A stretch of 64,000 nucleotides of DNA, taken from contig CACMIW010000001.1 of NCBI GenBank assembly GCA_902613845.1, forward strand, positions 124,001-188,000, given 5' to 3'. Under the pieces are notes generated by a model, which had not been told where the DNA came from, did not search any database, and worked only from the letters and a program-made list of their open reading frames with translations. Below, in pieces: positions 3,505 through 41,119 of the stretch. This DNA comes from an uncultured Alphaproteobacteria bacterium (GTDB lineage: Bacteria; Pseudomonadota; Alphaproteobacteria; HIMB59). The translations under genes were made by a program, and so were the position numbers. The first letter of the stretch is position 1. Every line of letters begins with the position of its first letter.

Positions 3505-4785
3505 GTGGATTACAAAGTAAAAGATATTTCCCAACATGAATTCGGGAGACAAGAAATTGAAATAGCAGAAACTGAAATGCCAGGATTAATGGCTATTCGT
3601 GAACAATATGGAGATTCAAAACCGTTGGCTGGAGCCAATATTATGGGTTGCCTTCACATGACCATCCAAACTGCTGTTTTAATTGAAACACTTGTAGCAC
3701 TTGGTGCCAAATGTCGATGGAGTTCTTGTAACATTTACTCTACTCAAGATCATGCAGCTGCTGCGATTGCCCAAAGCGGTACACCTGTTTTTGCCTGGAA
3801 GGGTATGAATGAAGAGGAATTTTGGTGGTGTATTGATCAAACAATTGAGGCAGATGGGTGGGAGCCTAATATGATACTAGACGATGGTGGAGACCTAACA
3901 CTTCGAATGCACGAGAAGTACCCTGAGCTATTAAAAAATGTTAGAGGACTATCTGAAGAAACTACCACAGGCGTTCTTCGTTTAGAGCAAATGGCGTCTA
4001 AAGGAACTCTTCAAGTTCCTGCTATAAATGTGAATGACTCGGTAACAAAAAGTAAATTTGATAATTTATACGGTTGTAAGGAGAGTTTAGTAGACGGTAT
4101 TCGAAGAGGAACTGACGTAATGATGGCTGGTAAAGTTGCAGTTGTTGCTGGGTTTGGAGATGTTGGAAAAGGTAGCGCTGCTTCATTAAGAGGGGCCGGG
4201 GCTAGAGTTCAAGTAACAGAAGTTGATCCTATTTGTGCACTTCAAGCAGCAATGGAAGGCTATGAGGTTGTCACTATGGATGATGCATGTAAGTATGCTG
4301 ATATATTTGTAACTGCAACAGGCAACAAAGATATCATTACCCAAGACCATATGAGAGAAATGAAAGACCGAGCAATTGTCTGTAATATCGGACACTTTGA
4401 TAATGAAATTCAAATAGATGATTTGCAAAACTATAAATGGGAAGAGATAAAACCTCAAGTTGACCAAGTAACATTTCCGGATGGTAAGAAGCTAATAATT
4501 CTTTCAAAGGGAAGGTTAGTGAACCTAGGTAATGCCACTGGCCATCCTAGTTTTGTGATGAGTGCATCATTCTCAAATCAGGTTTTAGCTCAAATCGAAA
4601 TTTGGGAGAATTACAAAAACTATGAAAATAAAGTCTATGTCCTTCCTAAAAAACTAGATGAAATGGTTGCAATGTTTCATTTACAAAAAGTTGGTGCTAA
4701 ACTGACTGAAATGTCCAAGGAACAGAGTGATTATTTAGGAGTTGAGCAACAAGGTCCATTTAAGAAAGATACATATAGGTACTAA
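3505..4785 (+). CDS. ahcY: Adenosylhomocysteinase (S-adenosyl-L-homocysteine hydrolase)
   Basis: Reversibly hydrolyses S-adenosylhomocysteine to homocysteine and adenosine using bound NAD. It is 426 residues with the N-terminal substrate domain ([33 protein letters not shown]), the active-site stretch [10 protein letters not shown], the Rossmann motif [15 protein letters not shown] and the C-terminal lysine/tyrosine tail ending KDTYRY. The GTG start at 3505 has a strong Shine-Dalgarno (AAAAGGAGGG, 3491-3500). It lies between adenosine kinase and metK (one base between ahcY and metK), forming a SAM-recycling operon. Certain at family level. Confidence 0.97.
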
Positions 4786-4786
4786 A

Positions 4787-5959
4787 ATGAGAAAAAATTA
4801 TATTTTTACATCTGAGTCAGTGTCTGAGGGACACCCAGATAAAGTTTCTGATCGAATTTCTGATGCAGTTGTTGATCATTTTATCTCCAAAGACCCATTT
4901 GCTAGAGTCGCTTGTGAAACATTAACAACAACCAACAAAGTTGTTTTATCTGGTGAAGTAAGAGGACCAGTCCAAGAAGACAAAGATGAAATTATTTCAA
5001 AAGTAAGGGAGTGCATAAAAGACATCGGCTATGAGCAAGATGGTTTTCATTGGCAAACCGCAGATATCCAATATTTACTTCACGGACAATCCGCAGATAT
5101 TGCAATGGGTGTAGACTCATCATCTGACAAAGACGAGGGGGCGGGTGACCAAGGAATTATGTTTGGATACGCTTGTACGGAAACACCTGAACTGATGCCG
5201 GCACCAATTTTTTATTCTCATAAAATCTTAGAGATAATGGCTAAGGGAAGAAAAGATGGCAGCTTAAAAGGATTAGAGCCTGACTCAAAGAGCCAGGTAA
5301 CTCTTAAATACGTTGATGGTAAACCAAGTGCAGTTACATCTGTTGTTATATCAACACAACATGCTGATGGATTGTCTCCTGCTGATGTTAAAGAAATAGT
5401 AAACCCAGCATTAAAAGAGTCTATCCCTGAAGAGTTATTAAAAAATTTAGATGATAAAGAATACTACGTTAATCCAACAGGTAATTTTGTGATCGGAGGA
5501 CCAGATGGTGATACGGGATTAACAGGAAGAAAAATTATTGTCGACACCTATGGTGGTGCAGCGCCTCACGGTGGAGGGGCTTTCTCTGGAAAAGATCCTA
5601 CAAAAGTCGATCGCTCTGCTGCTTATGCTTCACGATACTTAGCAAAAAATATTGTTGCTGCTGGTTTATGTGATCAGTGTACTATCCAGTTGTCTTATGC
5701 AATCGGTGTAGCCAAACCATTGTCAATTTATGTGAATACTCAAGGCACTAATAAAATAGATGAAGCAAAAATTGAGTCTGCGATACCTGACATTATGAAT
5801 CTTTCTCCAAGAGGAATCAGAGAGAAATTACAGTTAAATAAGCCAATTTACGAACAAACGGCAGCTTACGGTCATTTTGGTAGAACACATGACAGCTCTT
5901 CAGGGGCTTTTTCATGGGAAGCTCTAGATTTAGTGTCCGATTTCAAATCGCTAGCTTAA
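4787..5959 (+). CDS. metK: S-adenosylmethionine synthetase
   Basis: Makes S-adenosylmethionine from methionine and ATP. The protein is 390 residues from the ATG at 4787, one base after the ahcY stop. It carries [13 protein letters not shown] at the N-terminus (ATP-binding His), the hexapeptide-like [12 protein letters not shown], the P-loop-like [17 protein letters not shown] and [16 protein letters not shown] longer frame back to 4742 overlaps ahcY and adds residues absent from MetK, so I rejected it. Its stop touches the TTG start of tsaE, so the operon probably continues rightward. Confidence 0.97.
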
Positions 5960-8017: not shown

Positions 8018-8344
8018 ATGACAGTTGAACAAATAAATGACGATGAATTTAATCAAAAAGTTCTTGAAGGATCAAAAGATAAGCCTGTTTTGGTAGATTT
8101 TTGGGCTGAGTGGTGTGGTCCATGTAAGGCTATTGCTCCTATTTTGGATAATTTAGCCTCTGAAATGGGCGATAAGATATCTATAAAAAAAATTAATATA
8201 GATGAAAATCCTCAAGCACCAGCAAACTTTAGTATTAGGAGCATACCCACAATGATACTCTTTAAAGATGGATCAATGGCTGATGCAAAGATTGGCTTAG
8301 GCTCAGAAGCGGACTTAAGAAGTTGGATTAAGAGTAAACTTTAG
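8018..8344 (+). CDS. trxA: Thioredoxin
   Basis: Cytoplasmic thiol-disulfide reductant of 108 residues. The active site FWAEWCGPCKAIAP is at about residues 28-41, with the cis-Pro loop SIRSIPTMILFKDG. It starts at ATG 8018, 20 bases after the nucleotidyltransferase, and its stop overlaps the convergent alcohol dehydrogenase stop (8341-8344). In many Alphaproteobacteria addB and addA lie between the nucleotidyltransferase and trxA; here they are absent. Confidence 0.96.
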   Translation: MTVEQINDDEFNQKVLEGSKDKPVLVDFWAEWCGPCKAIAPILDNLASEMGDKISIKKINIDENPQAPANFSIRSIPTMILFKDGSMADAKIGLGSEADLRSWIKSKL

Positions 8345-9453
8345 AAGAAATTCATCTCAGAACACGCTTTATCAAATGAGATTTTATTTCCAATAAAATT
8401 TTTTCCCCTTTCACCTTGAAAAGCATCCTCAACATATTTATCCCATTCAATTTTTGGTATTCCAATTTCATTTAAATTTAATGGTGCTTCAAGAATTCTC
8501 AATGTCTCAGATAGTCTTTTTGAACTCTCAATGAGATCGACATTATAAATTTTTTCTAGGGATTTTTCTGTTTTTTCATCTTGGCCAATCAGACTCCTCA
8601 TTATTGTTGGCAAAGTAAAAGAACAAGCTATTCCATGTGGAACATTAAAATTAATTGTTATCGGGTATGAAATATTATGTGCTATTGCAGTTTTAGTATT
8701 TGAAAAAGCTAGACCTGCATGAACACAAGCTTTAGCCATTAAAGTTCTCAACTCTATGTTTTTTAAATCATTTACAAGTTTTGGAAGTGTTTCGATCACG
8801 GTTTGAGCACCTGCAATTCCATGAAATGTTGAAATCGGATTTGAGTTTACATTCCAAATGCTTTCTAAGGAGTGGGATAATGCATCAAGACCAGTAGAAA
8901 TAGTCAGATTTTTTGGCTTGTTGATCATTAACTTAGGGTCAATAACTGATATTTCAGGATATAAAGATTTATCTGCTAATGAAAATTTACTTTTATATTC
9001 TTTATCCCAGACTGTAGCCCAACACGTAAGTTCACTCGATGTGCCCGAAGTAGTAGGTATAGCTATAATTTTTTTTGGATCTTGAACGTAAGCTGATTTT
9101 TTATTTCTTACAAAATCATTTAAATATTTATTTTCACCTTTAAAAGCTGCAAGTAATTTGGCCGTATCCATGACAGAGCCGCCTCCAAGAGCAACAACTG
9201 TATCAATTTGACTTTCTATTTTTGAAAATTTTTCCCCTGCAGAAATTAAATCTTGATAGTCTGGATTTGGTTGAACATCATCAAAGATTTCTAGAGGCCT
9301 ATTTGATAAATTGTTAAAAAACTCTCTATACGTATCAAAGTTATCATCAGGATGGGTAACAAGAATGTACTTTCGATTACTTATTATATGTTCAATTTCA
9401 TTAAATTTTTCCGAACCAAAAATAACATTTACCGGATTATAATATTCCCACAT
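8341..9453 (-). CDS. Iron-containing (group III) alcohol dehydrogenase
   Basis: NAD(P)-dependent Fe-ADH family protein of 370 residues. It has the nucleotide-binding GGGSVMDTAKLLA, IPTTSGTSSELT, and metal ligands in GLDALSHSLES (Asp, His), AIAHNISYP and NVPHGIACS. It is the last gene of the leftward phnA-phnY-binding protein-MetE-like series, 5 bases after the MetE-like gene. The phosphonoacetaldehyde reductase PhpC belongs to this same family, so oxidation of 2-hydroxyethylphosphonate to phosphonoacetaldehyde, the substrate of PhnY, is an attractive inference. Family assignment is secure; substrate is unproven. Confidence 0.85.
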   Translation of the reverse strand: MWEYYNPVNVIFGSEKFNEIEHIISNRKYILVTHPDDNFDTYREFFNNLSNRPLEIFDDVQPNPDYQDLISAGEKFSKIESQIDTVVALGGGSVMDTAKLLAAFKGENKYLNDFVRNKKSAYVQDPKKIIAIPTTSGTSSELTCWATVWDKEYKSKFSLADKSLYPEISVIDPKLMINKPKNLTISTGLDALSHSLESIWNVNSNPISTFHGIAGAQTVIETLPKLVNDLKNIELRTLMAKACVHAGLAFSNTKTAIAHNISYPITINFNVPHGIACSFTLPTIMRSLIGQDEKTEKSLEKIYNVDLIESSKRLSETLRILEAPLNLNEIGIPKIEWDKYVEDAFQGERGKNFIGNKISFDKACSEMNFF

Positions 9454-9458
9454 AAGAT

Positions 9459-10541
9459 TTAGAGATTTTTAACAGCTTTTGAGAGAATTTGCATTTTTTG
9501 TTTTGCTTGATTTCTATCAAAAAACCCTAGACCACAATCAGGAGCAGCAATTAATCTTTCCTCATCAATATGCTCAAGAACTTCTCTGATCCTTTTTTGA
9601 ATTTCCTCGACACTTTCCATACGACTTTTAGCTACATCAATCAAACCCATAATAACTTTGGTTTTTTTAAATTTCTCTAATAATTTTAAATCTAAAGGTC
9701 GGTGAGAGTCTTCCAAAGAAACTTCGTCTATACTAGAGTCTTCAACTAAGTCAGCAATTTTATCATATGCATCTAGGTCTGCTTTTTTGTAGTGTTCTGA
9801 GTCAAGCGAGTTAGGATAACCGCAGCAAATATGACAAGCTTTTTGAGTTTCTTTTAGTATTCCATGCATTGCTCTTTCTAAGTTTTCCATACCATAATCG
9901 TGTGTTTCTTCTGGTTTTCTGGCGAACACTGGTTCATCAATTTGAATGTATTGACAACCAGCTTCGGATAGAGCCTTAACTTCATTACTAATACATAAAG
10001 CTAGATCATAACCCATTTTTTTGGGATCATTATAATAGTCATCAGCAATGGAGTCAGTTATTGTCATAGGACCAGGTATAGTTATTTTCACTGGGTTATT
10101 AGTAAACTGCTGTGCAGATTTCCAATCATCTACTAATCGTAATGATTTATTTGAAACTTTACTTGTAATTGTTGGGAGTGTTGCTTCAAAAGCTCCTTTC
10201 CTGACTGATTTAGTCGTTAAGTGTTCAAAGCTTACCCCATTAAAAAATCTCAATTGATAAAAAATATAGTTTTCTCGCCTTACTTCACCATCTGTGGGGA
10301 TATCTATTCCGCTACTTGTCTGATCAAGAATTACTTCTTCAATAGCTTTTAAGAATAGTTTTTCTTTTTCCTCATCTTTCTCTTCATATACTTTATGGTC
10401 TTCACTTTTGGGATCCCAATTTGATAACAATCCCTTGGATTGTTTTTTTTCTTCGTCAGATTTATCTTGGAGAAACCAATCTCTTATAGGTGTGTAATTA
10501 GGTTTTGGATAAGCTCCAATGGTTGTAGTTTTGATGCTCAT
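9459..10541 (-). CDS. Short MetE-like (cobalamin-independent methionine synthase C-terminal domain) protein
   Basis: This 360-residue protein corresponds to the catalytic half of MetE (full MetE is about 750). It starts with TTTIGAYPKP, typical of the domain, and keeps the zinc ligands His237 and Cys239 (ACHICCG), a candidate Glu277 (SLEDSH) and Cys336 (APDCGLGF). IDEPVFARKP holds the conserved acidic residue. Such short forms lack the N-terminal folate-associated domain and may use another methyl donor. Its place between a phosphonate binding-protein gene and an alcohol dehydrogenase suggests either methionine synthesis or methyl transfer from an imported compound; neither is shown. Confidence 0.8.
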   Translation of the reverse strand: MSIKTTTIGAYPKPNYTPIRDWFLQDKSDEEKKQSKGLLSNWDPKSEDHKVYEEKDEEKEKLFLKAIEEVILDQTSSGIDIPTDGEVRRENYIFYQLRFFNGVSFEHLTTKSVRKGAFEATLPTITSKVSNKSLRLVDDWKSAQQFTNNPVKITIPGPMTITDSIADDYYNDPKKMGYDLALCISNEVKALSEAGCQYIQIDEPVFARKPEETHDYGMENLERAMHGILKETQKACHICCGYPNSLDSEHYKKADLDAYDKIADLVEDSSIDEVSLEDSHRPLDLKLLEKFKKTKVIMGLIDVAKSRMESVEEIQKRIREVLEHIDEERLIAAPDCGLGFFDRNQAKQKMQILSKAVKNL

Positions 10542-10543
10542 TT

Positions 10544-10580
10544 AAAAAAAAAACAGCAGCCAGTATACTAGCTGCTGTTT
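10544..10580 (-). terminator. Intrinsic terminator/attenuator after the binding-protein gene
   Basis: On the minus strand AAACAGCAGC and GCTGCTGTTT pair over 10 bases around a 10-base loop (10580-10551; two more pairs inside). Ten consecutive T residues follow (10553-10544), and then the ATG of the MetE-like gene. This is a textbook Rho-independent terminator. It sits inside the gene series, so it should reduce transcription into the MetE-like and Fe-ADH genes relative to the binding protein. Confidence 0.85.
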
Positions 10581-10612
10581 AAAAATCTAATGATAAACGG
10601 AATTAAAAAGAC

Positions 10613-11848
10613 CTACATTAAGTCTTCAATTTCCTCCATCATTTCTTCCTGAAGATCGGCCATGTCGTCGGCGTCACCTGTAGCAATGGTCTCCGTGTAG
10701 TCATAGATTACCTGAGTCACAGCAAGACCGTTTTCTCCAGGATATGCGAACCAATCAGCTAACAAAGGCAGCTGATTAACAGCAGTTAACTTGTTGGGGT
10801 TTGCATCATAAAAATCACCTAACAGGTCATTTGCAGCTTTGTTAGGAGGAACGTAACCTGTTGTTTCTGCAACAGCAGCTGCTCCTACACCTGATGTGAT
10901 AAACTTTAAAAATGTCCATGCCGCTTGTACTCTTTCAGGATCATCTGAAGTAGTAACTAACATCGCTGCGTTACCACCGGCAGGTAGTCTAGCTGGAGTT
11001 CCACCATTAACACCAGGTATTCCTGGGAAAGGCGCAGTCTTTAGTTCAAAGTCAGCTTTTGCAGCTTCAACAGAGCCTAAACTACTAGTACTCCAAAACA
11101 TCATACCAATAGTACCTGCATTAAACGCAGCTTGTCCGTCAGCAATAGAATAGTTAGGCATATTACAGCCACCCATGATATCTTTCATTTGCTCTAAAGT
11201 TTTTAGACCAGCATCTCCTCCCATATTAACAGCTCCATCTTTAACCATTGGAACATTTTGGCTATGCATTAGAGCTTGATGGAACCAGTTACCTGTAATA
11301 TTCCATCCAAAGTAAAGTGTACCGTGTCCTGCAGCTTCTAATTTATTACAAGCGTCAATGACCTCATCCCAATTTGATGGAATGCTGCTAACACCAGCAC
11401 TTGCTAAAAGATCCATGTTGTAGTAACCAACTGGAGTTGATACTGAAAATGGCAAGCCATAAACCTCTCCTCCAAAGGTAGATAAGCTCAACATAGCTTC
11501 ATGATAACCGTCTTTTGCAAAATCTGGCTCATTAGCAATGAAAGGCTCTAAAGATAAAGCGATACCTTTGTCTACTAAAGGTGCTTGTCTATTAAGACCT
11601 TGCATGGTGATATCAGGTAAGTTTCCTGATGTTGACTCTCTTAGTATAGTAGCAGTAGCATCTTCATAGTTTTCATAAGTTGCTCTGAATTTAACTTTAA
11701 TGTCAGGATGAGCTTTTTCAAACTCTGGCATAATTGCCTGGTATGTCACATCGAACAAACCTGAATAAGGATATGCAAATTCAATTTCTACCGCATTAGC
11801 GTTGTATGCGAAAACTGATGCAAAAAATCCTAAGATTACTTTTTTCAT
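10613..11848 (-). CDS. ABC transporter family-1 substrate-binding protein, UgpB-like
   Basis: Periplasmic solute receptor of 411 residues. The N-terminus MKKVILGFFASVFAYNANAV is a signal peptide. The mature part begins EIEFAYPYSG and has the family-1 hallmark GNLPDITMQG, with VYGLPFSVSTPVGYYN resembling UgpB. The C-terminal tail is strongly acidic. Good Shine-Dalgarno (minus strand AAGGAGGGA). The matching ATPase and two permeases lie divergently at 14791-17763. UgpB binds glycerol-3-phosphate and diesters; linkage to phnA/phnY suggests a phosphonate or phosphonate ester here (inference). Confidence 0.88.
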   Translation of the reverse strand: MKKVILGFFASVFAYNANAVEIEFAYPYSGLFDVTYQAIMPEFEKAHPDIKVKFRATYENYEDATATILRESTSGNLPDITMQGLNRQAPLVDKGIALSLEPFIANEPDFAKDGYHEAMLSLSTFGGEVYGLPFSVSTPVGYYNMDLLASAGVSSIPSNWDEVIDACNKLEAAGHGTLYFGWNITGNWFHQALMHSQNVPMVKDGAVNMGGDAGLKTLEQMKDIMGGCNMPNYSIADGQAAFNAGTIGMMFWSTSSLGSVEAAKADFELKTAPFPGIPGVNGGTPARLPAGGNAAMLVTTSDDPERVQAAWTFLKFITSGVGAAAVAETTGYVPPNKAANDLLGDFYDANPNKLTAVNQLPLLADWFAYPGENGLAVTQVIYDYTETIATGDADDMADLQEEMMEEIEDLM

Positions 11849-11980
11849 AGTCCCTCCTTAAAATAATAATAATTAATTATTAAATCCTTAATGTTAAGAA
11901 TATGTTAAATTTTTAAAGCAAAGTACAAATAATAAGTATGTGTGAGAAAAAATCTGTGAATAATTCCTAAAAGCTATTAA

Positions 11981-13420
11981 TTACCAAGGTAATGAGAAGG
12001 TTTTTACATTTGTGTAACTTTTCATAGCCTCTATTACACCCTCTTTATAGCCTAATCCTGAGTCTTTTATTCCGCCAAAAGGTGACATCTCAATTCTGTA
12101 ACCGGGCACTTCCCAAATATTAACTGTGCCCACATTGAGACCGCTTATGTATTTTTTAATTCTTCTAAAATCGTTACTACAAACACCTGATGACAAACCA
12201 AAGGCCGTTGAATTTGAAATTTCCATTACTTTTTCATCATCATTGGGAACTCTAATGACAGGCACAATTGGACCAAAGGTTTCTTCAACAACAAGTTCTG
12301 ATTTATAATTAACGTTGTCTAAAAAAATTGGTGGCACAAGAGCTTCTTGGACCCCAGGGTTATAAAGAATTTTTGCACCATCCTGTTCAGCTTTATTTAC
12401 TCTGTCATTAAACATACTTGCTGCCTCTTTATTAATTACTGTACCCAACTGATTGTTAACATCCATAGGATCACCATATTTAATTGCTTTTGCTTTTTCC
12501 AAAGCAAGCTCGACAAATTTATCAGCTACTGATTCTTGAACTAATATTCTTTTTACAGCAGTGCATCTTTGGCCAGAGTTTTTTGTTGCTCCCATGATTG
12601 CAAGATCAGCTGCTTTATTTAAATCATCATCATCTAAGTCACTCAAAACTATTAAAGGGTCGTTTCCACCTAACTCTAAAACAGTTCTTTTGTAACCTGC
12701 ATTTTCAGCTATCAGTTTTCCAACACCAACGCTTCCTGTAAAAGTAATCAAATCTATATTTTTATTTTTAATTACTTCATTCCCAATATCTTCAGGCCAT
12801 CCTGTTAAAATTGAAAACATTTCTGGAGGAAGGCCACATTCATATAAAATATCTGCAAGTAGCATAGCTGTTAAAGGGGTCAATTCTGTTTGTTTACAAA
12901 CAGTACAGTTGTTAGTTGCTATTGATGGAGCAATTTTGTGAGCAACCATATTTAAAGGATGATTAAATGGAGTGATTGCAGATATTGTGTTAAGCGGTTC
13001 TCTAATTGTAAATATTTTTCTTTGTTTTCCGTGAGGTGTTAAATCACAAGAATAAATTTCTCCATCATCCTGGATACAAAGCTGAGCAGTAAGAGAAAAT
13101 ACATCAAAGGCCCTACCAACTTCATAAAGCGTATCTTGTTTCGATAGCCCAGACTCAAGTGAAATTAGATCAGAGATTTGTTCTTTTCTTTCAACAAGAG
13201 TTTCAGCAGTCTTTTGAAGTATTTTTTGACGATCATATCTAGATAAATTGGGTTTATAATTTGCAGCAATATCAAAGGCTTTTTGAGCATGTTCTGCTGT
13301 GCCAGCTGGTACTGTGCCTATAACTTTACCTGTGAAGGGATAGATAACATCAATCTTGTTATCAGTGTGAACAGTTTTTCCACCAATCCTCATACCCTCA
13401 TTAATAATTTTATCAGCCAT
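11981..13420 (-). CDS. phnY: Phosphonoacetaldehyde dehydrogenase
   Basis: Aldehyde dehydrogenase oxidising phosphonoacetaldehyde to phosphonoacetate with NAD. It has 479 residues, with general-base Glu249 (VLELGGNDP), Arg285-Cys286 nucleophile ([11 protein letters not shown]), Asn153 (TPFNHPLN) and the nucleotide loop [10 protein letters not shown]. An Arg just before the catalytic Cys matches characterised Sinorhizobium PhnY, where it contacts the phosphonate. The gene is 2 bases downstream of phnA, so co-transcription is near certain. Without phnA, a general ALDH call would be the fallback. Confidence 0.88.
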
Positions 13421-13422
13421 GA

Positions 13423-14658
13423 TTAAGCTCCATTAATAGCATAAAAAAATGCATCATAGTTATTTAAACTTTGATCTTTGGCAATGTTTAGTTTTTTATT
13501 AGAAATAAAAGGAACTTCTCTTTCATGATGACCTCCATGAGATCTAAGGGGTTCCTTTAATTTTGAAAGATCATGATTAGCTTTTGAGGTACCAATTGTC
13601 ATATCTTCAGATGACATGCATACGATATCACCTATTCTATCTGAAGGTAGCCTATATTCTCTACATGCTTCATCTTGTTTAACAACTACTTCAATTTCTT
13701 TAATTGATGATATTTTGCTAATTGTTTCATCAATTTTTGATTTATCTTTTACATATATAGTGGCAAACGATCCTAGTGAACCATGATGAACTACATAAGG
13801 GTCAGTAATTGGAAGTATTACTTTAGCCTCATCTTTACCCATTTGATCATCTAAATAATCTTGTAGAAAGATGGCATTAGGTTCTCCATTAATATTTGCT
13901 TTAGACTTCATTCCATGATCTGCAGTGATGACAACCGAATTCCCATTACTACAAATTTTACTGACATACTTATCAAACATCTGATAAAAATCATTTGCTT
14001 CTTTATCTCCAGGTGCATATTTGTGTTGAATAAAGTCAGTGGTAGATAAATACATAATGTCAGGATTAAATTCCTCAAGTAATTTTACCCCAGCTGCCAT
14101 AACAAATTCTGATAGATCCTGAGAATATACTTCAGGTACTTTCATTCCAATCCAGTCATTAATATTTTCAATACCATTTTCACTGAGAGTGGCCTGATCT
14201 GATTTTTCTGATGAAAAACAGATTGCTCTTCCTTCATTAAATTTTAAACCATTACCTAAAAGAGTTCTTAATTTATCCTTAGCAGTGATTACTGCTATTT
14301 TATAACCTTCATTATAATATTTCTCAAAAATAGTTGGAGCTCTTAAATATTGTGGATCATTCATCATCACTTCTTCACCGGTTGATGGGGTATAAAAGAA
14401 ATTACCACTTATTCCATGAACATCACTAGGCTGCCCTGTGACTATCGAAATGTTGTTAGGGTTTGTGAAACTAGGAATAGCACTGTTAGCCATCAGATAT
14501 TGCCCATTTTCCAGTATTTTATCAAGATTTGGTGTCAATCCTTTTGAAGAGGCGATATCAATATACTCTTTTTGACTACCATCGAGGCATATAACTACTA
14601 CAGTTGAAGAAAGTGATTTATTGTATTGTCTTTTATTTATTTCAATTTTATCACTCAT
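13423..14658 (-). CDS. phnA: Phosphonoacetate hydrolase
   Basis: Alkaline-phosphatase-superfamily enzyme that cleaves the C-P bond of phosphonoacetate to acetate and phosphate. The seven two-zinc-centre residues are all visible: Asp26 (VICLDGSQ), nucleophile Thr65 (PSFTNPNN), Asp208 and His212 ([10 protein letters not shown]), Asp247 and His248 (ITADHGMKS) and His374 (RSHGGHHE). Their spacing equals that of Sinorhizobium PhnA with a constant shift. It is 411 residues and cytoplasmic (no signal peptide). It is first in the leftward operon. PhnW and PhnX are not in the window, so the source of phosphonoacetaldehyde must be another enzyme or locus. Confidence 0.9.
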
Positions 14659-14790
14659 AATTACTATTGCCCCCTATAAAGAACAAACTTCCGATTAATC
14701 TAAAATTCATAAAGTTTTAACATAAAATTTACAAATTTACTTTTAAAATGTCTTAATCAGAACTATTTTAGTGTTGAGGAATAAAAATAG
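14659..14790. promoter_or_regulatory. Divergent promoter region, phnA / UgpC-like operon
   Basis: This 132-base AT-rich region separates the leftward phnA operon from the rightward importer genes and must carry both promoters. A tandem AAATTTAC repeat lies near 14726-14742. I could not find a convincing Pho box (CTGTCAT-type direct repeats), so substrate rather than phosphate control is possible. Prediction from gene layout only. Confidence 0.45.
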
Positions 14791-15909
14791 ATGGGGACAA
14801 TTTCTTTAAAGAACATCAATAAGTCATTTGGCTCAACTGAGGTGCTTAAACAACTAAGCCTTGATATCCAAGATGGTGAATTTTTAACATTAGTCGGTCC
14901 GTCCGGTTGTGGCAAATCCACTTTGTTAAAAATTATTGCCGGATTGGAGCAACAAAATAGTGGTGACGTAATTATTGATGATAAGAATGTTAACAGCACT
15001 AGAGCTAGCAAGAGAGACTTAGCAATGGTTTTCCAATCTTACGCTCTTTACCCGCACCTGACAGTCAGAAAAAATTTAGAAACACCTTTGAAATTAAGAG
15101 ACTATAGTTTTGTAGAGAGGTTGCCTCTTATTGGTAATTTTGTACCAAGTAGAAAAGAAAAAAAGAAATCAATTGATGACCTTGTTTTCAAAACATCTGA
15201 AACTTTAAAAATAACAGAACTACTTGATAGGAAGCCAGGTCAACTATCTGGTGGTCAAAGACAAAGAGCGGCCCTAGGAAGAGCGATGGTAAGAGAACCA
15301 GTCGCATTCTTAATGGATGAACCTTTATCAAATCTTGATGCAGCATTAAGAGTTCATATGAGATCTGAACTATCTGAGCTTCATAATTCTTTAAAGACCA
15401 CTTTCATTTATGTGACGCATGATCAAGCTGAAGCACTTACAATGTCAACTCGAATGGCGGTAATGATTGATGGGGAGCTTTTGCAACTTGATACCCCAAG
15501 TGAGGTTTATAATAATCCATCATCTTTAAGGGTTGCAGAATTTGTTGGCAGTCCAAAGATTAACACATTTGCTGCTCAGATTAGCCCTGATGGCTCTGTT
15601 GAATTTATGGGTATTAAGCTTGAAAGAAAATTTAATACTAATAGTCAAAAAGCTTTAGTTGCTGTGAGACCAGAACATTTAGAAATTACAAAAGACTCAA
15701 ACAAACCTGCATTTGAGGCTACAGTTTCATACCGAGAAAACCTTGGTTCTGATATATTTTACCATGTTCAAGTTGATCAATCTGACTTTAAAATCATAGT
15801 CAGAGGCTCACCACAAGCTGGACTGATCTCAAATGGGGAAACTGTTAGAATAAGTCTCTCTCATGCAGAGGCTATGCTTTTTGAAACATCTGGTGAGCGT
15901 ATCCGATAA
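14791..15909 (+). CDS. ABC importer ATP-binding protein, UgpC/MalK-like
   Basis: Drives the importer encoded with the following two permeases. It has 372 residues with Walker A GPSGCGKST, Q-loop MVFQSYALYPHLTV, signature LSGGQRQR, Walker B FLMDEPLSNLDAALR, H-loop YVTHDQAEA and a C-terminal TOBE region (VAVRPEHLEI). Between the Q-loop and signature there is an insert of roughly 20 residues (VERLPLIGNFVPSRKEKK) not usual in UgpC. It starts at ATG 14791 and is followed after 2 bases by the first permease. Confidence 0.92.
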   Translation: MGTISLKNINKSFGSTEVLKQLSLDIQDGEFLTLVGPSGCGKSTLLKIIAGLEQQNSGDVIIDDKNVNSTRASKRDLAMVFQSYALYPHLTVRKNLETPLKLRDYSFVERLPLIGNFVPSRKEKKKSIDDLVFKTSETLKITELLDRKPGQLSGGQRQRAALGRAMVREPVAFLMDEPLSNLDAALRVHMRSELSELHNSLKTTFIYVTHDQAEALTMSTRMAVMIDGELLQLDTPSEVYNNPSSLRVAEFVGSPKINTFAAQISPDGSVEFMGIKLERKFNTNSQKALVAVRPEHLEITKDSNKPAFEATVSYRENLGSDIFYHVQVDQSDFKIIVRGSPQAGLISNGETVRISLSHAEAMLFETSGERIR

Positions 15910-15911
15910 AT

Positions 15912-16868
15912 ATGCACCACTCTAAAGCACATATTTGGTTTGTTTGGCCTGCAATCATACTAATGATTGTCATATTAATACTTCCAATTTTTTTAGCCGG
16001 AGGTATCTCATTTACTAATTACAATCTTGGTAATTCTAGTTTCGAATGGGTAGGTACGGAGAATTATGAAAAAATGTTCTCAAGAAAAACTTACATAAAA
16101 ATGATTATATCAACGGCAACTTACGTGTTGATCGTTGTTCCTGTTTCAGTGGTATTAGGTTTAGTTGCAGCCATTATGCTCAACTCTCTTCGATTTGGAG
16201 CTGATATTTATAAAACAATTTTCTTTCTTCCGGTGATGGCTACTTTATTGGCAATGGCTATTGCTTGGGAATTTACTCTTCATCCAACTCTTGGAATAAT
16301 TAATTCTTTCCTTGCCAATGGATGCGGAGGTATTAGAGAATTTATTTTAGGTTTTCATTGGCTACCGTGGGTTAGTTCCGAGGACAGTTGGTACAGTGTT
16401 GCTTGTGCTAACAATATGGATTTCCCGTATTGGCTCAAAGATAAAAAAACAGCGATTTGGACAATTTGTTTTATTGGAGTATGGCAAGCCTTTGGATTTA
16501 ATATGGTGTTATACTTAGCTGGTTTAACAAGCATACCAAGAGAACTGTATCATGCTGCAGAAATGGATGGTGCTCAGTCAACTTGGGAACAATTTAAACT
16601 TGTAACTTGGCCAATGTTAGGTCCAACAACTCTTTTTGTGGTTACCATAACGACAATAAGGTCATTTCAAGTATTTGACACAATTGAAATTCTTACAAAA
16701 GGCGGTCCTGCCAAAACAACGTATGTAATGATGTACGCAATTTTTGAAAAAGCAATTCAACAAAATATTACAAGTATTGGTGCAGCGATTACTGTTGTGT
16801 TTATAATTTTTATAATCTTGCTAACATTCTTCCAAAGATATGTGATTGAGAAAAGGGTACATTACTAA
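15912..16868 (+). CDS. ABC importer permease, UgpA/MalF-like
   Basis: Inner-membrane subunit of 318 residues with six predicted membrane helices and the cytoplasmic EAA-type loop (ELYHAAEMDGAQSTWEQFKLVTWPML) that contacts the ATPase. A periplasmic stretch at about residues 133-178 is longer than usual and holds two Cys (138 and 165), possibly a disulfide. The pattern is matched by two Cys in the partner permease. Substrate is unknown; see the linked binding protein. Confidence 0.9.
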   Translation: MHHSKAHIWFVWPAIILMIVILILPIFLAGGISFTNYNLGNSSFEWVGTENYEKMFSRKTYIKMIISTATYVLIVVPVSVVLGLVAAIMLNSLRFGADIYKTIFFLPVMATLLAMAIAWEFTLHPTLGIINSFLANGCGGIREFILGFHWLPWVSSEDSWYSVACANNMDFPYWLKDKKTAIWTICFIGVWQAFGFNMVLYLAGLTSIPRELYHAAEMDGAQSTWEQFKLVTWPMLGPTTLFVVTITTIRSFQVFDTIEILTKGGPAKTTYVMMYAIFEKAIQQNITSIGAAITVVFIIFIILLTFFQRYVIEKRVHY

Positions 16869-16869
16869 A

Positions 16870-17763
16870 ATGTTAGCTAGACATTATATTGGAGAGTCAT
16901 GGAAGCATGGACTGCTCATCATTGGAGCATTAATTGTGTTGATCCCATTCTACATGATGGTTTCAATGTCACTTAAATCTCAACAAGAAATTCAGTCAAT
17001 ATCTGGAGGTTTAGTCGGAGCACAGGAGATTCAAACATTCCCAGTTTGTACTAAGCACGGATATACTGAAGAGGTATGCACAATGCGACCTTATAAATAC
17101 AATTTCTGGTTTGCATTCAAAAAAGCGCCAATTCCAAGGTATTTAATGAACGGTTTGATTGTGACTGTTTCAATCTTTTTAATACAAGTATTGATTGCAC
17201 TTCCATGTTCTTATGCACTAGCCAAGCTCAGGTTTAAAGGCAGGGAATTTGTCTTTTCGATGGTTCTGTTCTGTTTATTAATACCTGTGCATGCAATCGC
17301 TTTACCGTTGTATGTCATGTTAGCAAAAGCTGGACTGGTGGATACCTACGCAGCCTTAATAATACCGTGGACGATATCCGTGTTTGGAATTTTTCTAATG
17401 CGGCAATTTTTTATGACAGTACCAGATGAACTAATTGATGCTGCAAGGATGGATGGTATGGGAGAATATTCTATTGTTTGGAAAGTTATGCTTCCTGTAG
17501 CCATACCAGCGTTACTCGCTTTTGCAATTTTCTCAGTTGTTGCTCACTGGAATGATTATTTTTGGCCTAGGATTGTTATCACAGGTAATCGTGATTTATT
17601 TACACCACCACTTGGTATTAGAGAATTTAGAGGCGGAATTGATAGTGATGAATTTGGACCGATGATGGCGTCGATTGTTACTGTTACCATTCCACTTATT
17701 GTGGCTTTCATAGTTGCTCAAAAAAGATTTGTTGAAGGTATTACTATGACTGGAATGAAGTAA
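16870..17763 (+). CDS. ABC importer permease, UgpE/MalG-like
   Basis: Second membrane subunit, 297 residues from ATG 16870, one base after the previous stop. A TTG at 16846 would overlap the first permease. It has six predicted helices and the EAA loop DELIDAARMDGMGEYSIVWKVMLP. The first periplasmic segment (about residues 38-80) is enlarged and contains Cys60 and Cys70 ten residues apart. Its stop abuts the stop of the convergent SMR gene. Confidence 0.9.
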   Translation: MLARHYIGESWKHGLLIIGALIVLIPFYMMVSMSLKSQQEIQSISGGLVGAQEIQTFPVCTKHGYTEEVCTMRPYKYNFWFAFKKAPIPRYLMNGLIVTVSIFLIQVLIALPCSYALAKLRFKGREFVFSMVLFCLLIPVHAIALPLYVMLAKAGLVDTYAALIIPWTISVFGIFLMRQFFMTVPDELIDAARMDGMGEYSIVWKVMLPVAIPALLAFAIFSVVAHWNDYFWPRIVITGNRDLFTPPLGIREFRGGIDSDEFGPMMASIVTVTIPLIVAFIVAQKRFVEGITMTGMK

Positions 17764-18093
17764 TTATTTACCCAGAGCGTTTACCATAACAATACCAAGT
17801 ATAATCAGCCCACAACCAAGAATTCCAAATAAGTTTGGACCCTGACCAAACTTAATTATACTTAATATGAACGTTCCAAAAATCACTAAACCAGCATAAG
17901 AGGCATAGGCAATTCCCATTGGTAAAAACTTCATTACCTTAGAAATAAAAAAGACCGCGATTACTATGGAAATAGCACTTAGTGAGGTTGGTATGAATTT
18001 CTCGTATCCATTTGATATTTTTGCAAAATTATTTGAAAGTATCCCGAAGAAGACCGCTGCAGCTAAATAAAAATATCCAATCAGTTTAGATAT
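17764..18093 (-). CDS. SMR-type small membrane protein with non-standard start
   Basis: An open frame of up to 109 codons encodes four hydrophobic helices with clear small-multidrug-resistance features: a KISNGY turn after helix 1, MGIAYASYAG in helix 3 and a C-terminal GILGCGLIILGIVMVNAL. It has no ATG, GTG or TTG near the expected N-terminus. The first codons after the upstream stop are ATA TCT AAA CTG ATT, overlapping the dddP stop, so translation probably starts at ATA, CTG or ATT by coupling. The membrane Glu essential in EmrE (Glu14) is replaced here, apparently by Gly in AVFFGIL, and EmrE Trp63 by Tyr. Transport of a cation by proton exchange is therefore doubtful. Confidence 0.7.
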   Translation of the reverse strand: MSKLIGYFYLAAAVFFGILSNNFAKISNGYEKFIPTSLSAISIVIAVFFISKVMKFLPMGIAYASYAGLVIFGTFILSIIKFGQGPNLFGILGCGLIILGIVMVNALGK

Positions 18094-19372
18094 CTATCTC
18101 ATAAGGAAATGAACTTAGTTGCTTCAAGCCATCTTTGGTTACAACGAACTGATCCTCGAGTTTAATTCCTTCTTTGCCGCCAACTTCACCAATATAACTC
18201 TCTACACAGATAGTCATATTTTCCTCAAAATTGGCTGAGTAATCCGCGTTGCTAAAATCTCTATTTGGGTAAGCAACAAGTGGCCATTCATCACAAAGAC
18301 CGACACCATGAATAATGCATGGATAATGATTATCGTAGCAATTATCAGGCAATTTCCAGGATTTTTCTGCAAATTCTCTAAAATTTAAACCAGCTTTAAT
18401 CAGAGATTTGTTATGATTAATATGCTCTAAAGACATTGAGTAGAGCCTTTTTTGTTCATCATTTAGACGATTGCCCTCAACAAAGGTTCGAGAGATATCA
18501 GCACAGTAACCGTACGGTCCAACCATATCTGTGTCAAAAGCAACTAAATCTCCAGACTCAATGACTCTGTTACTGCATTCTTGAAGCCAAGGATTTGTTC
18601 GTGGTCCAGATACTAAAAGACGAGTCTCAAACCATTCCCCACCATTTTCAATATTGACTTTATGCATGTATGACCAAAGTTCTTCTTCTGTCATACCTGC
18701 CTGAAGTTTGTCTCTCATTAGCCACATTCCTTTTTCAGCAGTCTCAATAGAAGCTTTCATGCAAATTAACTCATCATCAGATTTAATAGATCTTGCAAGC
18801 TCAATATACTTTTGGGCGTTCACTAGTTTAACATTAAACTGTTTAAGTAACATTTGTATTCCAACTGGATCGGAAACATCTATTGCAAGACAATTATTAT
18901 CAGGTGAATGCTCTCTCATTAAATCTTGAACAGTGCCAGCCCATTTTTTTGCATTTTTATCAACAAAATTATTTGCTGAAAAAAAATCCCAACTATCAAC
19001 TGCTCGAATATCATCAATCGTGCATAAATGTTCTGAGAGATGCTCGCTCTTTGGATAATCAAATAGTATTACTTTTCCCTCTGCAGAAATAAATACGAAT
19101 CGAACGAGTTCATGCATTGTAAATAAACTCATATTTCTACTGTCGGTTGCATACCTTATATTGATCGGATCAAATAATATGCAAGCACCAACATTATTTA
19201 ATCGTAGTTGCTCTAAAACTCTATTGAGTCGATACATACGTAAACGGTCGAAGTCTATTTTTTCTTCGTAGAGCCTAGGTTTATAAACTTGATTTTCAAA
19301 ATTTTGGTTAATTGTTTCGAAAAACTTTGGGCCAATTTTACGGTCTGCAAATTTACTTGTAAAATTACTCAT
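18086..19372 (-). CDS. dddP: DMSP lyase DddP (M24 peptidase-fold)
   Basis: Cleaves dimethylsulfoniopropionate to dimethyl sulfide and acrylate. It is 428 residues from the ATG at 19372. The metal set seen in DddP crystal structures is complete: Asp280, Asp282 (AFDTDMVG), Asp292 (YCADISR), His355, Glu391 (CVESY) and Glu406 (IKLEDQ), plus the catalytic Asp361 in HGVGLCDEWPLVAYP. Long DddP-specific blocks (FDPINIRYATDS, GGEWFETRLLVSGPRTNPW) separate it from ordinary prolidases. It overlaps the upstream methyltransferase-like gene by 8 bases and the downstream SMR gene start. No acrylate-utilisation gene is adjacent. Confidence 0.9.
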   Translation of the reverse strand: MSNFTSKFADRKIGPKFFETINQNFENQVYKPRLYEEKIDFDRLRMYRLNRVLEQLRLNNVGACILFDPINIRYATDSRNMSLFTMHELVRFVFISAEGKVILFDYPKSEHLSEHLCTIDDIRAVDSWDFFSANNFVDKNAKKWAGTVQDLMREHSPDNNCLAIDVSDPVGIQMLLKQFNVKLVNAQKYIELARSIKSDDELICMKASIETAEKGMWLMRDKLQAGMTEEELWSYMHKVNIENGGEWFETRLLVSGPRTNPWLQECSNRVIESGDLVAFDTDMVGPYGYCADISRTFVEGNRLNDEQKRLYSMSLEHINHNKSLIKAGLNFREFAEKSWKLPDNCYDNHYPCIIHGVGLCDEWPLVAYPNRDFSNADYSANFEENMTICVESYIGEVGGKEGIKLEDQFVVTKDGLKQLSSFPYEIDI

Positions 19373-20477
19373 CCAAATGACTTTTAAAATTATTCTTTTC
19401 AAACCTTAAAAGATTATCACTAAATTGCAATTTAAGTTTTTTTGCACTATTGCTAATTTTATCAAGGAAATTAATACTTATTTTAATACTTTTTTGTTCA
19501 TTTTCGGATATTTGACCAACATAGGTGATAGCATTCCATAATCCAAGAGAGTTCATCGGTGAAAATTTTTTCTTAGAGGATAACGATAGGTTTATAAATG
19601 AAAATAAAAATGAAGATATGGATACTTTAAATTTTTTTCTAAAATGAGGTATTTTTTTATTCAGGCTTTCTACAAATTTTTTGGGATCACTAAATTGATA
19701 GGGATTAATCTTTGGAAAGAATAATTTGAGAAGCTTTTTTGAAAAATCATTTCCGGATGAATAAATAAAAAATAGCTGACCTTTTACATCTAACATTTTT
19801 AATAATGGAATAAGTACTAGCTTAAGTGTTCTGTTGTAAGGAGACCTTAGCCTGAAAGCTTGAGATGCAATTATATAGTCGTAAAACTTTGGAATACTCT
19901 CTAACTTACTTGGTATCAAATGCTTTAATGCAATTTTTTGATCCCTCCTGTAAATAACCATCAGTGTCTTTTGCCTCGGTCTCAATATGGTTGAAGAAGT
20001 ATCTTCTTTTATATCCCAATTTTTTCTTATAACCTCACCCATATTCATGAGTTGCTGATTGAAACTAAAACTTGAATTTCCAACTAATTCTTTTTTTATT
20101 AACTTACAATCTGTGAAACGATTATCATTAATTTCTCTGTAAGATGCATTAGTTATACAGAAAACTAAATTCTTATGTTCAAAAAATCTATAACCAAGAT
20201 AATTCAGAAGACTGTTAATATCATCGATACTAATTTCTTTTCCAACAACTATAATTGGATCTTCAGGAAATTTGTCATGAACAGCCGATAGCAATGTGCA
20301 GATGACTGAGCCATCTCCTGTCCCAGCATCAAAAATTCTAAATGCATCTTCAGTAATTTTAGAATTTTTTAAATACTTCGCTAATTGAAAAGCTATTCGA
20401 CTTTTTTCGTTGGTAGAATTTACAAATGATAAATATTTATCTCTTGAATCAAAAAAATCTGACTTTTTTGCCCCCAC
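19365..20477 (-). CDS. Predicted class I SAM-dependent methyltransferase, unclassified
   Basis: I do not recognise the subfamily. The 370-residue protein has a SAM-binding motif I (FRIFDAGTGDGSV, residues 47-59) after an N-terminal helix resembling histamine methyltransferase-like proteins (YLSFVNSTNEKSRIAF). A Lys/Phe-rich C-terminal half follows with no known domain. The GTG start at 20477 follows AGGAGAAATAAG. It is first in a three-gene leftward operon with dddP and the SMR gene. It does not obviously match the DMSP-synthesis methyltransferases DsyB or MmtN, though I cannot exclude a role in sulfonium chemistry. Confidence 0.55.
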   Translation of the reverse strand: MGAKKSDFFDSRDKYLSFVNSTNEKSRIAFQLAKYLKNSKITEDAFRIFDAGTGDGSVICTLLSAVHDKFPEDPIIVVGKEISIDDINSLLNYLGYRFFEHKNLVFCITNASYREINDNRFTDCKLIKKELVGNSSFSFNQQLMNMGEVIRKNWDIKEDTSSTILRPRQKTLMVIYRRDQKIALKHLIPSKLESIPKFYDYIIASQAFRLRSPYNRTLKLVLIPLLKMLDVKGQLFFIYSSGNDFSKKLLKLFFPKINPYQFSDPKKFVESLNKKIPHFRKKFKVSISSFLFSFINLSLSSKKKFSPMNSLGLWNAITYVGQISENEQKSIKISINFLDKISNSAKKLKLQFSDNLLRFEKNNFKSHLDE

Positions 20478-25707: not shown

Positions 25708-26571
25708 ATGAACTTTAAACATAAATATGTATTTTTACTTCCCGGTTTAATAGTTTTAATTGGTATACTAATTTTTCCAATAATTTTTACTGTAAGGTTA
25801 AGTTTATCAGGATGGAATAGTTTTAATCCTGGATTAGATTTTATAGGTCTTAAAAATTATATTCGATTATTTACTGATGACCCTCGTTTTTGGCAGTCAT
25901 TTTTTAGACTAAGTTTTTTAGCAATAACTACGGTTTTTCTTCAATATATAATTGGGTTTGCTTTGGCCCACATGGTCTGGAAGGACATTAAGTTTAAAAG
26001 ATTTTTTAGAGTTTTGTTTCTTATTCCTATGATGACAACTCCAGTAATTATGACTGTTATTTGGAGAACTTTTTTTCATGAATCCTTAGGACCTTTAAAT
26101 GATTTTCTGAGTATTTTTGGAGTACAACCCCCATGGTTATCTAGCCCTGGTTTAGCAAAAGTCTCCATTATTGTAGTAGAAGTTTGGCAGTGGACATCGT
26201 TTATGTTCCTATTAATGTTGGCTGGACTTTTAAGTTTACCTAAAGAGCCTTTTTTAGCAGCAGCAGTTGATGGTGCCTCCCCATTTAAAAAATTTATATA
26301 TGTCACTTTTCCTTTGATGGCACCCATATCTATTGGTGCAATAATAATAAGACTTATTGAAGCCTCCAAAATTATGGATACAGTTTTTGTTTTGACAAGC
26401 GGTGGTCCGGGTACGTCTACGGAAACATCTAGCTTTTTCATTTTTATAAAAGGGCTTCGCGAATTCCAAATGGGATACGCCGCAACAGCCTCATTTACGT
26501 ACCTTATTATCATGATCATAAGTTTGACAATTATTGTTAAAGTCTTAACGAAGGTTTTGATGAGAGAATAA
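25708..26571 (+). CDS. ABC importer permease, GlpP/MalF-like
   Basis: Inner-membrane subunit of 287 residues with six predicted helices. The N-terminal helix FLLPGLIVLIGILIFPIIFTV leads into SGWNSFNPGLDFIGLKNY, typical of MalF-type permeases. The EAA-type loop KEPFLAAAVDGASPFKKFIYVTFPLM is intact. It follows the binding-protein gene after the hairpin and is one base from the next permease. By order and likeness it corresponds to GlpP of the glycerol importer. Confidence 0.88.
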   Translation: MNFKHKYVFLLPGLIVLIGILIFPIIFTVRLSLSGWNSFNPGLDFIGLKNYIRLFTDDPRFWQSFFRLSFLAITTVFLQYIIGFALAHMVWKDIKFKRFFRVLFLIPMMTTPVIMTVIWRTFFHESLGPLNDFLSIFGVQPPWLSSPGLAKVSIIVVEVWQWTSFMFLLMLAGLLSLPKEPFLAAAVDGASPFKKFIYVTFPLMAPISIGAIIIRLIEASKIMDTVFVLTSGGPGTSTETSSFFIFIKGLREFQMGYAATASFTYLIIMIISLTIIVKVLTKVLMRE

Positions 26572-26572
26572 A

Positions 26573-38912: not shown

Positions 38913-38932
38913 AATTTATTTACCTATTATCA

Positions 38933-41052: not shown

Positions 41053-41067
41053 TGTATTAGAAAGATG

Positions 41068-41099
41068 CTAAGGGCAAATAATACACTATTCGCCCTTAG
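41068..41099 (-). terminator. Hairpin between glucoside-binding-protein and permease genes
   Basis: CTAAGGGC (41068-41075) pairs with GCCCTTAG (41092-41099); inside it, one A/C mismatch and then AATA/TATT extend the stem to 12 pairs around a 6-base loop. The following minus-strand bases are only weakly T-rich, so partial termination or mRNA protection is more likely than full termination. Confidence 0.65.
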
Positions 41100-41119
41100 T
41101 TTAGAAATTAACTATTTTT

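Follow-up and report, generated by a model that had tools for sequence, protein, structure and literature searches.

A phnYA gene cassette of HIMB59 Alphaproteobacteria with a PsrA-like dehydrogenase and a UgpB-type importer, a candidate route for using 2-hydroxyethylphosphonate without PhnW

In the PhnWYA pathway of 2-aminoethylphosphonate (2-AEP) catabolism, phosphonoacetaldehyde is supplied by PhnW and is then taken by PhnY and PhnA to the end products acetate and phosphate. Here we describe a cassette that shares PhnY, PhnA and these end products, found in a 64,000-nucleotide stretch of DNA (the window; positions 124,001 to 188,000 of contig CACMIW010000001.1, assembly GCA_902613845.1) from an uncultured alphaproteobacterium of the HIMB59 lineage (in our reading HIMB59/AEGEAN-169); unlike the PhnWYA systems, it comes with no detectable PhnW and with no importer of the AepXVW or PhnCDE type, and its proposed entry step is the oxidation of an alcohol. 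Other described systems resemble it in part. Clusters with flavin adenine dinucleotide (FAD) amine oxidases (PbfC/PbfD) likewise reach phosphonoacetaldehyde without PhnW, since such enzymes make it from N-methyl-AEP or 2-AEP (PMC10590968). The LysR-psrA-phnA-phnY clusters of Bradyrhizobium, Ensifer and Leisingera have in common with the window an iron-containing alcohol dehydrogenase (Fe-ADH) of the PsrA type, phnA-phnY and the absence of phnW from the fetched stretch. They differ in carrying a LysR regulator and in their transport genes (a PhnDCE-type importer in Leisingera, a peptide-type importer with a major facilitator superfamily transporter nearby in Ensifer, or none recognised), and a MetE-like gene such as that of the window was not seen in them. 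PhpC of phosphonate biosynthesis is also an Fe-ADH linking phosphonoacetaldehyde and 2-hydroxyethylphosphonate, as described in a passage of PMC9381506; the Fe-ADH of the window lies in a catabolic cluster and is likened to PhpC by description.

Part of the phosphonate in dissolved polysaccharides of the sea consists of 2-hydroxyethylphosphonate esters. In the part of PMC5649143 consulted, microbes are shown to use them by way of carbon-phosphorus (C-P) lyase, which yields ethylene. We propose, with a probability of about two in three, that the present cassette is a self-contained catabolic module by which phosphorus (and carbon) would be obtained from a phosphonate without PhnW, via 2-hydroxyethylphosphonate or its ester. 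Some of this is already known: 30% of Ca. Nemonibacter genomes were reported to have phnY and phnA alone, which was called a partial 2-AEP pathway, and over 85% of Ca. Indicimonas genomes to have the full pathway (sections of PMC11366302), and we read these two clades as the two families compared below. C-P lyase islands of HIMB59 have been described, the window's cluster not being among the portions of PMC10734472 examined, and phosphonate use is mentioned in passing in an excerpt of PMC10308909. What appears to be new is the completion of the phnYA pathway by PsrA; in the openly licensed literature, as far as its accessible portions go, we recognised no description of PsrA oxidising 2-hydroxyethylphosphonate to feed PhnYA.

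PhnY, PhnA and the genes found in place of PhnW

Eight genes were confirmed at 8341-17763 of the window. A leftward run of five (phnA-phnY-binding protein-metE-like-psrA-like) and a rightward run of three (ugpC-ugpA-ugpE) diverge from a 132-base gap. PhnA and PhnY, regarded as secure in the original prediction, both passed curated cut-offs (TIGR02335, 485 vs. 407.6 bits; TIGR03250, 762 vs. 635.7 bits) and aligned nearly end to end with their best solved relatives, which are the phosphonoacetate hydrolase 3szy for PhnA (542 bits) and, for PhnY, 4i3t (787 bits), deposited as 'Aldehyde dehydrogenase (NAD+)' and taken by us to be a PhnY. PhnA has D26, T65, D208, H212, D247, H248 and H374, presumably in ligand roles, and PhnY has C286, presumably the catalytic residue, within an 11-residue motif. 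Judged by strong homology, the identities of PhnA and PhnY and the ATP-binding cassette (ABC) importer class are well established.

The source genome (1.28 Mb, 28 contigs, 92% completeness) contains no recognisable PhnW: the sole TIGR02326 match at E 0.001 scored 101.8 bits against a cut-off of 400.8, and the protein concerned is a class-V aminotransferase resembling the aspartate-glyoxylate aminotransferase BhcA (539 bits, below that model's cut-off of 650, vs. 101 bits to PhnW). For comparison, 162 genomes of the order were sampled and counted by handle number, about 52 from the window's family and 110 from its sister family. PhnA was found in 125 of the 162 and PhnW in 93 at E 1e-40 (91 passing the cut-off). 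In the sister family 99 of 110 genomes have PhnA, 93 have PhnW and 88 have both, and PhnW is present in 19 of 20 fetched loci; in the window's family PhnW was found in none of about 52 genomes, 26 of which have PhnA. The difference among PhnA-bearing genomes (88/99 vs. 0/26; Fisher p = 2e-18) concerns related, non-independent genomes and therefore describes a split between families, not a number of events. The original prediction had pointed to the lack of PhnW in the window; none came to light elsewhere in the genome or in the sampled family, and gaps in the genomes would by themselves hardly account for this.

Every PhnA-bearing genome of the window's family has one of two alternative gene sets at the position where PhnW would be expected. 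In 21 of the 26 this is the cassette, in some cases cut by contig ends, and in five (G111, G116, G118, G120 and G128) phnA-phnY precede genes for an FAD oxidoreductase of family TIGR03364, for an EamA protein and for an importer of the AepX type. Among the 26, the cassette's metE-like gene is present in 20, and 17 of these have a psrA-like match of at least 380 bits; the exceptions are G153 and G159, where psrA can be seen truncated by the end of the contig, and G138, whose contig ends in the metE-like gene. In G147 the contig edge follows phnA-phnY and ugp genes are present, and a 3.9 kb contig of G158 bears the metE-like gene and psrA and lacks phnA. Counted over the whole family, 18 of 21 genomes with a metE-like gene of at least 66% identity have a psrA-like gene, the other three being those cut by contig ends. 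Among the genomes with the FAD-oxidase set, G111 is a single 1.41 Mb contig; its set has a HAD protein interposed, and the binding protein reaches 523 bits with phnS2, over a cut-off of 393. Two further genomes have this oxidase: G114, where an AepX-type importer accompanies it at a second locus in addition to the cassette, and G135, which gave no PhnA match. These TIGR03364 (HpnW_proposed) oxidases are taken to be of the phosphonoacetaldehyde-making kind (PbfC/PbfD); the window's own genome gave no match to the family at E 1e-50 (11 of 19 candidates scored). In the window's group it is the PsrA-like enzyme that fills the position of PhnW.

The sister family shows that the parts come as units. 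Eight of its 20 fetched loci have the whole cassette (importer, binding protein, metE-like and psrA-like genes) with phnA-phnY, three (L073-L075) have the psrA-like gene alone directly after phnY, seven have neither, and of the last two one breaks off at phnA and the other lacks it. Because the arrangement recurs in these eight and also in 15 loci fetched from the window's own family, where it is either whole or truncated at a contig end, it is not due to chance. The sister-family form of the cluster also occurs in single-cell genomes of uncultured Alphaproteobacteria.

The PsrA-like dehydrogenase

The best NCBIfam match of the Fe-ADH is TIGR03405 (PsrA), at a score under the cut-off (Table 1), and we therefore call it PsrA-like. 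In a tree, 38 PsrA-type proteins including that of the window fall on one side of a branch and four other Fe-ADHs on the other, with support 100/99; the rows were hand-chosen from fetched loci, L151 was dropped for a stop in the fragment, and the long rows of L005 and L007 are of unsure inner placement. D190, H194, H259 and H273, which we take to be metal ligands, are invariant in nine aligned PsrA-type proteins. The original prediction had placed the enzyme in the PhpC family: its membership of a phosphonate-linked clade holds, and the nearest named relative among the families compared is NCBI's PsrA.

A scan of the genome collection for PsrA returned at least 598 matching stretches, of which the best 80 loci, a set biased towards close relatives, were fetched; 18 belong to this order and 62 do not. 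Stretch lengths differ, and phnW was scored within each fetched stretch. Of the 62 outside the order, 23 have phnA and phnY and one has phnX, and 20 of the 23 are without phnW. The combination of Fe-ADH and phnYA without a nearby phnW thus recurs in other Alphaproteobacteria, and on plasmids as well, so that the core of the combination, of which the original prediction had seen no exact description, is not unique to the window. By annotation, except where separately tested, the plasmid loci include psrA-phnDCEE-phnA-phnY in Leisingera, LysR-psrA-phnA-phnY in Ensifer and LysR-psrA-phnDCE in Vibrio, while psrA is paired with phnX in Agrobacterium (phnX-LysR-psrA) and Comamonas (phnDCE-psrA-phnX). 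Since it is found repeatedly with two different enzymes that consume phosphonoacetaldehyde and with importers of phosphonates, in clusters that often lack the usual aldehyde source, the best reading of the Fe-ADH, from gene context and phylogeny, is that of a PsrA-like enzyme making phosphonoacetaldehyde, its substrate presumably being 2-hydroxyethylphosphonate.

The reverse direction, in which the enzyme would reduce phosphonoacetaldehyde to 2-hydroxyethylphosphonate as a by-route of synthesis or for removal of excess aldehyde, seems improbable for the window. Such a reading was given to phpC noted in catabolic 2-AEP operons, with PhnW as the aldehyde source (a passage of PMC9381506), and reversal is possible in the sister family, where PsrA and PhnW occur together in 68 of 75 genomes. 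It does not fit the window's own family, in which PhnW is lacking and HpnW occurs only in other genomes (plus the second locus of G114), so that a reductase would be left without a known source of its substrate. The position of psrA directly after phnY in L073-L075, and the company of phnA-phnY in 23 of the 62 outside loci as against phnX in one, also argue for oxidation. Another assignment, PsrA as the glycerol-1-phosphate dehydrogenase of the Gpx importer, whose genes are PhnD-like (excerpt of PMC12718374), found no support, and phnYA would not fit it. The PhnD-like proteins beside psrA in Leisingera and Vibrio have PtxB as their best match (112 and 138 bits). To 9lf9, in our own reading GpxB, they score 67 and 72 bits.

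The UgpB-type importer and the MetE-like protein

Both Pfam and NCBIfam place the binding protein and the UgpC, UgpA and UgpE components in the CUT1/UgpB type, in agreement with the original prediction that the importer is neither PhnCDE- nor AepXVW-like. With the UgpB model NF008211 the binding protein scores 68 bits and fails the cut-off of 411. In UgpB the phosphate is contacted by two Tyr and two Ser and the glycerol by Gly, Glu and Arg, two Trp forming a clamp, and the Tyr and Ser are kept in glycerophosphocholine- and dinucleotide-binding proteins and not in glucose binders (results given in part of PMC12718374). We aligned Escherichia coli UgpB with the window protein, eight plasmid homologues, two sister-family relatives and the protein of locus L131, in three modes that gave the same result; the mapping of residue numbers from Phaeobacter to E. 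coli is our own. The window protein shares the CUT1 fold of the glycerophosphate importer and its phosphate-contacting residues (Tyr61, Ser137, Tyr332 and, by a conservative change of Ser to Thr, Thr254), as well as the clamp (Trp182 and Trp188) and Gly291, whereas the glycerol-contacting Glu and Arg are replaced by Gly84 and Thr378 in all three modes. The ten homologues match the window protein at these sites, except that the first Ser is Gly in Delftia and the Arg is Ile in Bradyrhizobium, and the L131 protein retains Glu and Arg as in true UgpB. Among the controls, all four phosphate residues are missing from MalE, and YcjN shows one Tyr and one Thr. Foldseek with a model of the binding protein (mean pLDDT 75, from ten sequences; the other four models were lower) returned UgpB and dinucleotide-binding proteins in its first eight rows.

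The homologous operons also point to a phosphorus ester. In the plasmid collection 30 records, 17 of them Phaeobacter, match the binding protein at E 1e-60, and in all 11 that were examined a metallophosphoesterase-type gene lies in or beside the ugpCAE-binding protein operon. Ten of these were recognised by annotation (metallophosphoesterase, phosphodiesterase or, in pAKD18, 'phosphatase') and that of Tritonibacter by tblastn; those of Rhizobium WL3 and Bradyrhizobium 62B are distant kin of the others, and PdeA of Delftia we take to be a phosphodiesterase. Homologous phosphoesterases share a stretch with psrA in 17 of the 18 loci of the order and in five of the 62 outside it (L114, L125, L131, L143 and L151), in part some kilobases away. 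L131 (Rhodobacteraceae bacterium AH-326-L19) is an independent form of the module that brings its own phosphodiesterase: a single 8.9 kb contig has binding protein-UgpA-UgpE-UgpC-glycerophosphodiester phosphodiesterase (GDPD)-PsrA, after which come a metallophosphoesterase and, truncated where the contig stops, a MetE-like gene (lists of open reading frames (ORFs) are rough for GC-rich loci, including L131 and L207). Residues and homologous operons together suggest a phosphorus-ester importer with a ligand other than glycerophosphate; that it would carry an ester of 2-hydroxyethylphosphonate follows from its place in the cluster. The esterified or sugar-linked ligand of the original prediction is accordingly favoured in its first form, through the marks of a phosphorus-ester binder, and not in its second, as the phosphate head of UgpB is shared and the polyol site is not.

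The MetE-like protein cannot be classed as MetE, having no N-terminal domain and only 92 bits with TIGR01371 (cut-off 930); its best model is NF006589 (209 bits, cut-off 392). The H237, C239, E277, C336 and D202 motifs are present, presumably with zinc and substrate roles. In the sister family a metE-like gene of at least 66% identity is listed in 67 genomes, all 67 of which have a psrA-like gene, and eight further genomes have the psrA-like gene without it, some perhaps owing to contig ends. Many sister-family genomes have a second paralogue (about 50% identity), which in most of 11 fetched loci has an Opp-type importer and a PehA-like ester hydrolase next to it, the family assignments coming from L096 and L099. 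In a class-wide sample MetE-like proteins were found in 11 of 385 genomes at E 1e-60, three of them of this order, and several had other importers or none recognised beside them. In a distant alphaproteobacterium (L207, G470:C86) a MetE-like gene lies on the same strand beside an AepXVW-type importer of 2-AEP. The protein, to which the original prediction gave no role, is at a guess probably a thiol alkyl-transfer enzyme acting on the cargo of these importers.

The role of methionine synthase of the cell was considered and set aside, as the complete genome G111 and other relatives do without the gene, which is thus dispensable for this purpose, and as PF02574 marks further loci of homocysteine-methyltransferase type in the own genome (four matches at three genes). 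Two genes of the window, ahcY (3505-4785, +) and metK (4742-5959, +), lie on the opposite strand; their proximity speaks against dismissing the idea altogether, and it is possible that the protein is one of several methionine synthases.

It is rather improbable that the importer and the MetE-like protein are merely neighbours of the phosphonate genes, serving a different nutrient (a phosphodiester or a methylated compound) or a different task (methionine synthesis), although the stretches shown around homologues of the binding protein in Phaeobacter, Tistrella and elsewhere have no annotated phn genes, the second MetE-like paralogue sits beside an Opp-type importer, and ahcY and metK are 3.5 to 6 kb away. 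In the 20 fetched sister-family loci the importer and MetE-like genes never occur without psrA, they sit within the phnA-phnY-psrA run, and the MetE-like gene is accompanied by psrA in each of the 67 genomes mentioned above.

The proposed pathway, its surroundings and its meaning

In the pathway that we favour, the UgpB-like importer would take up 2-hydroxyethylphosphonate or, more likely, its ester, from which a phosphodiesterase encoded elsewhere would release the acid. The PsrA-like Fe-ADH would oxidise 2-hydroxyethylphosphonate to phosphonoacetaldehyde, PhnY would convert this to phosphonoacetate, and PhnA would cleave the C-P bond to give acetate and phosphate; the steps of PhnY and PhnA would pull the unfavourable alcohol oxidation forward. 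The MetE-like protein may perhaps shift an alkyl or methyl group from what is imported to a thiol. A fuller version, in which this abundant ocean clade mineralises esterified 2-hydroxyethylphosphonate through a dedicated phosphorus-ester importer, Fe-ADH, PhnY and PhnA, with neither C-P lyase nor ethylene, and the MetE-like protein moves the alkyl (methyl) group to a thiol such as homocysteine, is speculative and, taken as a whole, unlikely. The observation behind the original prediction is confirmed and its interpretation partly supported.

Several findings weigh against a pathway through 2-hydroxyethylphosphonate. The genome searched for PhnW is 92% complete. Not only the window's Fe-ADH remains under the PsrA cut-off: TIGR03405 matches at E 1e-50 occur in 95 of the 162 genomes of the order and none passes, and two of the 95, in G112 (205 bits) and G119 (173 bits), are probably other Fe-ADHs. 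Outside the order, 38 of the 62 PsrA loci have none of phnA, phnY and phnX in the fetched stretch; 20 of these have phnC and phnE (18 of them also LysR) and 18 do not. The frequent pairing of PsrA with PhnW in the sister family belongs here too, and in the openly licensed literature we found neither an assay of any PsrA nor the basis of the NCBI name. No phosphodiesterase gene lies within the cassette itself; the own-genome homologue of the phosphoesterases is located elsewhere, at 28-33% identity, and the genome has one GDPD. In VIA-align, the same binding-protein model ties UgpB and the dinucleotide-binding proteins with sugar binders. Finally, PbfA gave no match among the cassette genes and 20 further window ORFs (NCBIfam scan), and no genome-wide search for it was made.

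This last point bears on the weakest alternative, that another enzyme makes phosphonoacetaldehyde (PbfA from 2-amino-1-hydroxyethylphosphonate, or a BhcA-like enzyme acting on 2-AEP) and the Fe-ADH is accessory, which has a slight chance at best, for although the PhnW-like protein of the genome is a class-V aminotransferase, it scores far higher to BhcA than to PhnW, and no aminotransferase was seen among the cassette genes or the 20 further ORFs (NCBIfam at strict E limits, some ORFs being matchless).

Table 1 Features of the cassette, in window coordinates
Feature	Position	Strand	Basis
PsrA-like iron-dependent alcohol dehydrogenase (Fe-ADH), 370 aa	8341..9453	-	TIGR03405 385 bits (cut-off 423.7), tree, motifs
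MetE-core-like protein, 360 aa, catalytic domain alone	9459..10541	-	PF01717 (Meth_synt_2) 118 bits
UgpB-like periplasmic binding protein, predicted binder of an organophosphorus ester with a non-glycerol tail	10613..11848	-	SBP_bac_8/1; aligned residues
PhnY, phosphonoacetaldehyde dehydrogenase	11981..13420	-	TIGR03250; PDB 4i3t
PhnA, phosphonoacetate hydrolase	13423..14658	-	TIGR02335; PDB 3szy
Divergent intergenic gap phnA/ugpC	14659..14790	.	ORF gap; sequence inspected
UgpC-like importer ATPase	14791..15909	+	NF008653 382 bits, below cut-off 432
UgpA-like permease	15912..16868	+	PF00528; NF007852 100 bits, cut-off 335
UgpE-like permease	16846..17763	+	PF00528; NF008210 128 bits, cut-off 297

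No promoter consensus was found in the gap between phnA and ugpC, and a scan of 14500-15000 gave one promoter-like site, inside ugpC, vs. 3.0 in shuffled sequences. Compared with the window, the eight whole cassettes of the sister family are most alike in the binding protein (81-87% identity) and the permeases (86-89%) and less so in UgpC (71-73%), PhnA (69-72%) and the PsrA-like protein (58-63%), an unevenness that may mean that part of the importer is under strong constraint or was transferred.

Downstream of ugpE, on the opposite strand, lie an M24-type protein like the dimethylsulfoniopropionate lyase DddP (18086-19402, -; 371 bits, cut-off 600) and a 370-aa protein (19365-20477, -) with no Pfam match that looks, by eye, like an S-adenosylmethionine-dependent methyltransferase. 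A relative of the latter (33-40% identity), likewise without a Pfam or NCBIfam match, directly follows psrA or phnY in 13 of the 20 fetched sister-family loci, and the protein may have belonged to the phosphonate operon from early on. Further along the window are a CUT1-type importer with a UgpA-like permease and two tandem UgpC-like ATPases (25708-29567, +) and an alpha-galactosidase-like protein adjoining a CUT1-type sugar importer (36517-42430, -).

If Ca. Nemonibacter and Ca. Indicimonas are the two families compared here, the split between them would explain the 'partial' pathway as one in which the entry enzyme was swapped and the pathway was not lost. Should the proposed route be true, genomes with phnYA and without phnW would count as users of phosphonates other than 2-AEP, and marine surveys would need to re-examine in which direction enzymes of the PsrA/PhpC type work. 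The route would also drain a phosphonate already known from the sea, a sink overlooked by surveys keyed to PhnW, PhnX, PhnZ or PhnJ and booked as use of 2-AEP by those keyed to PhnA.

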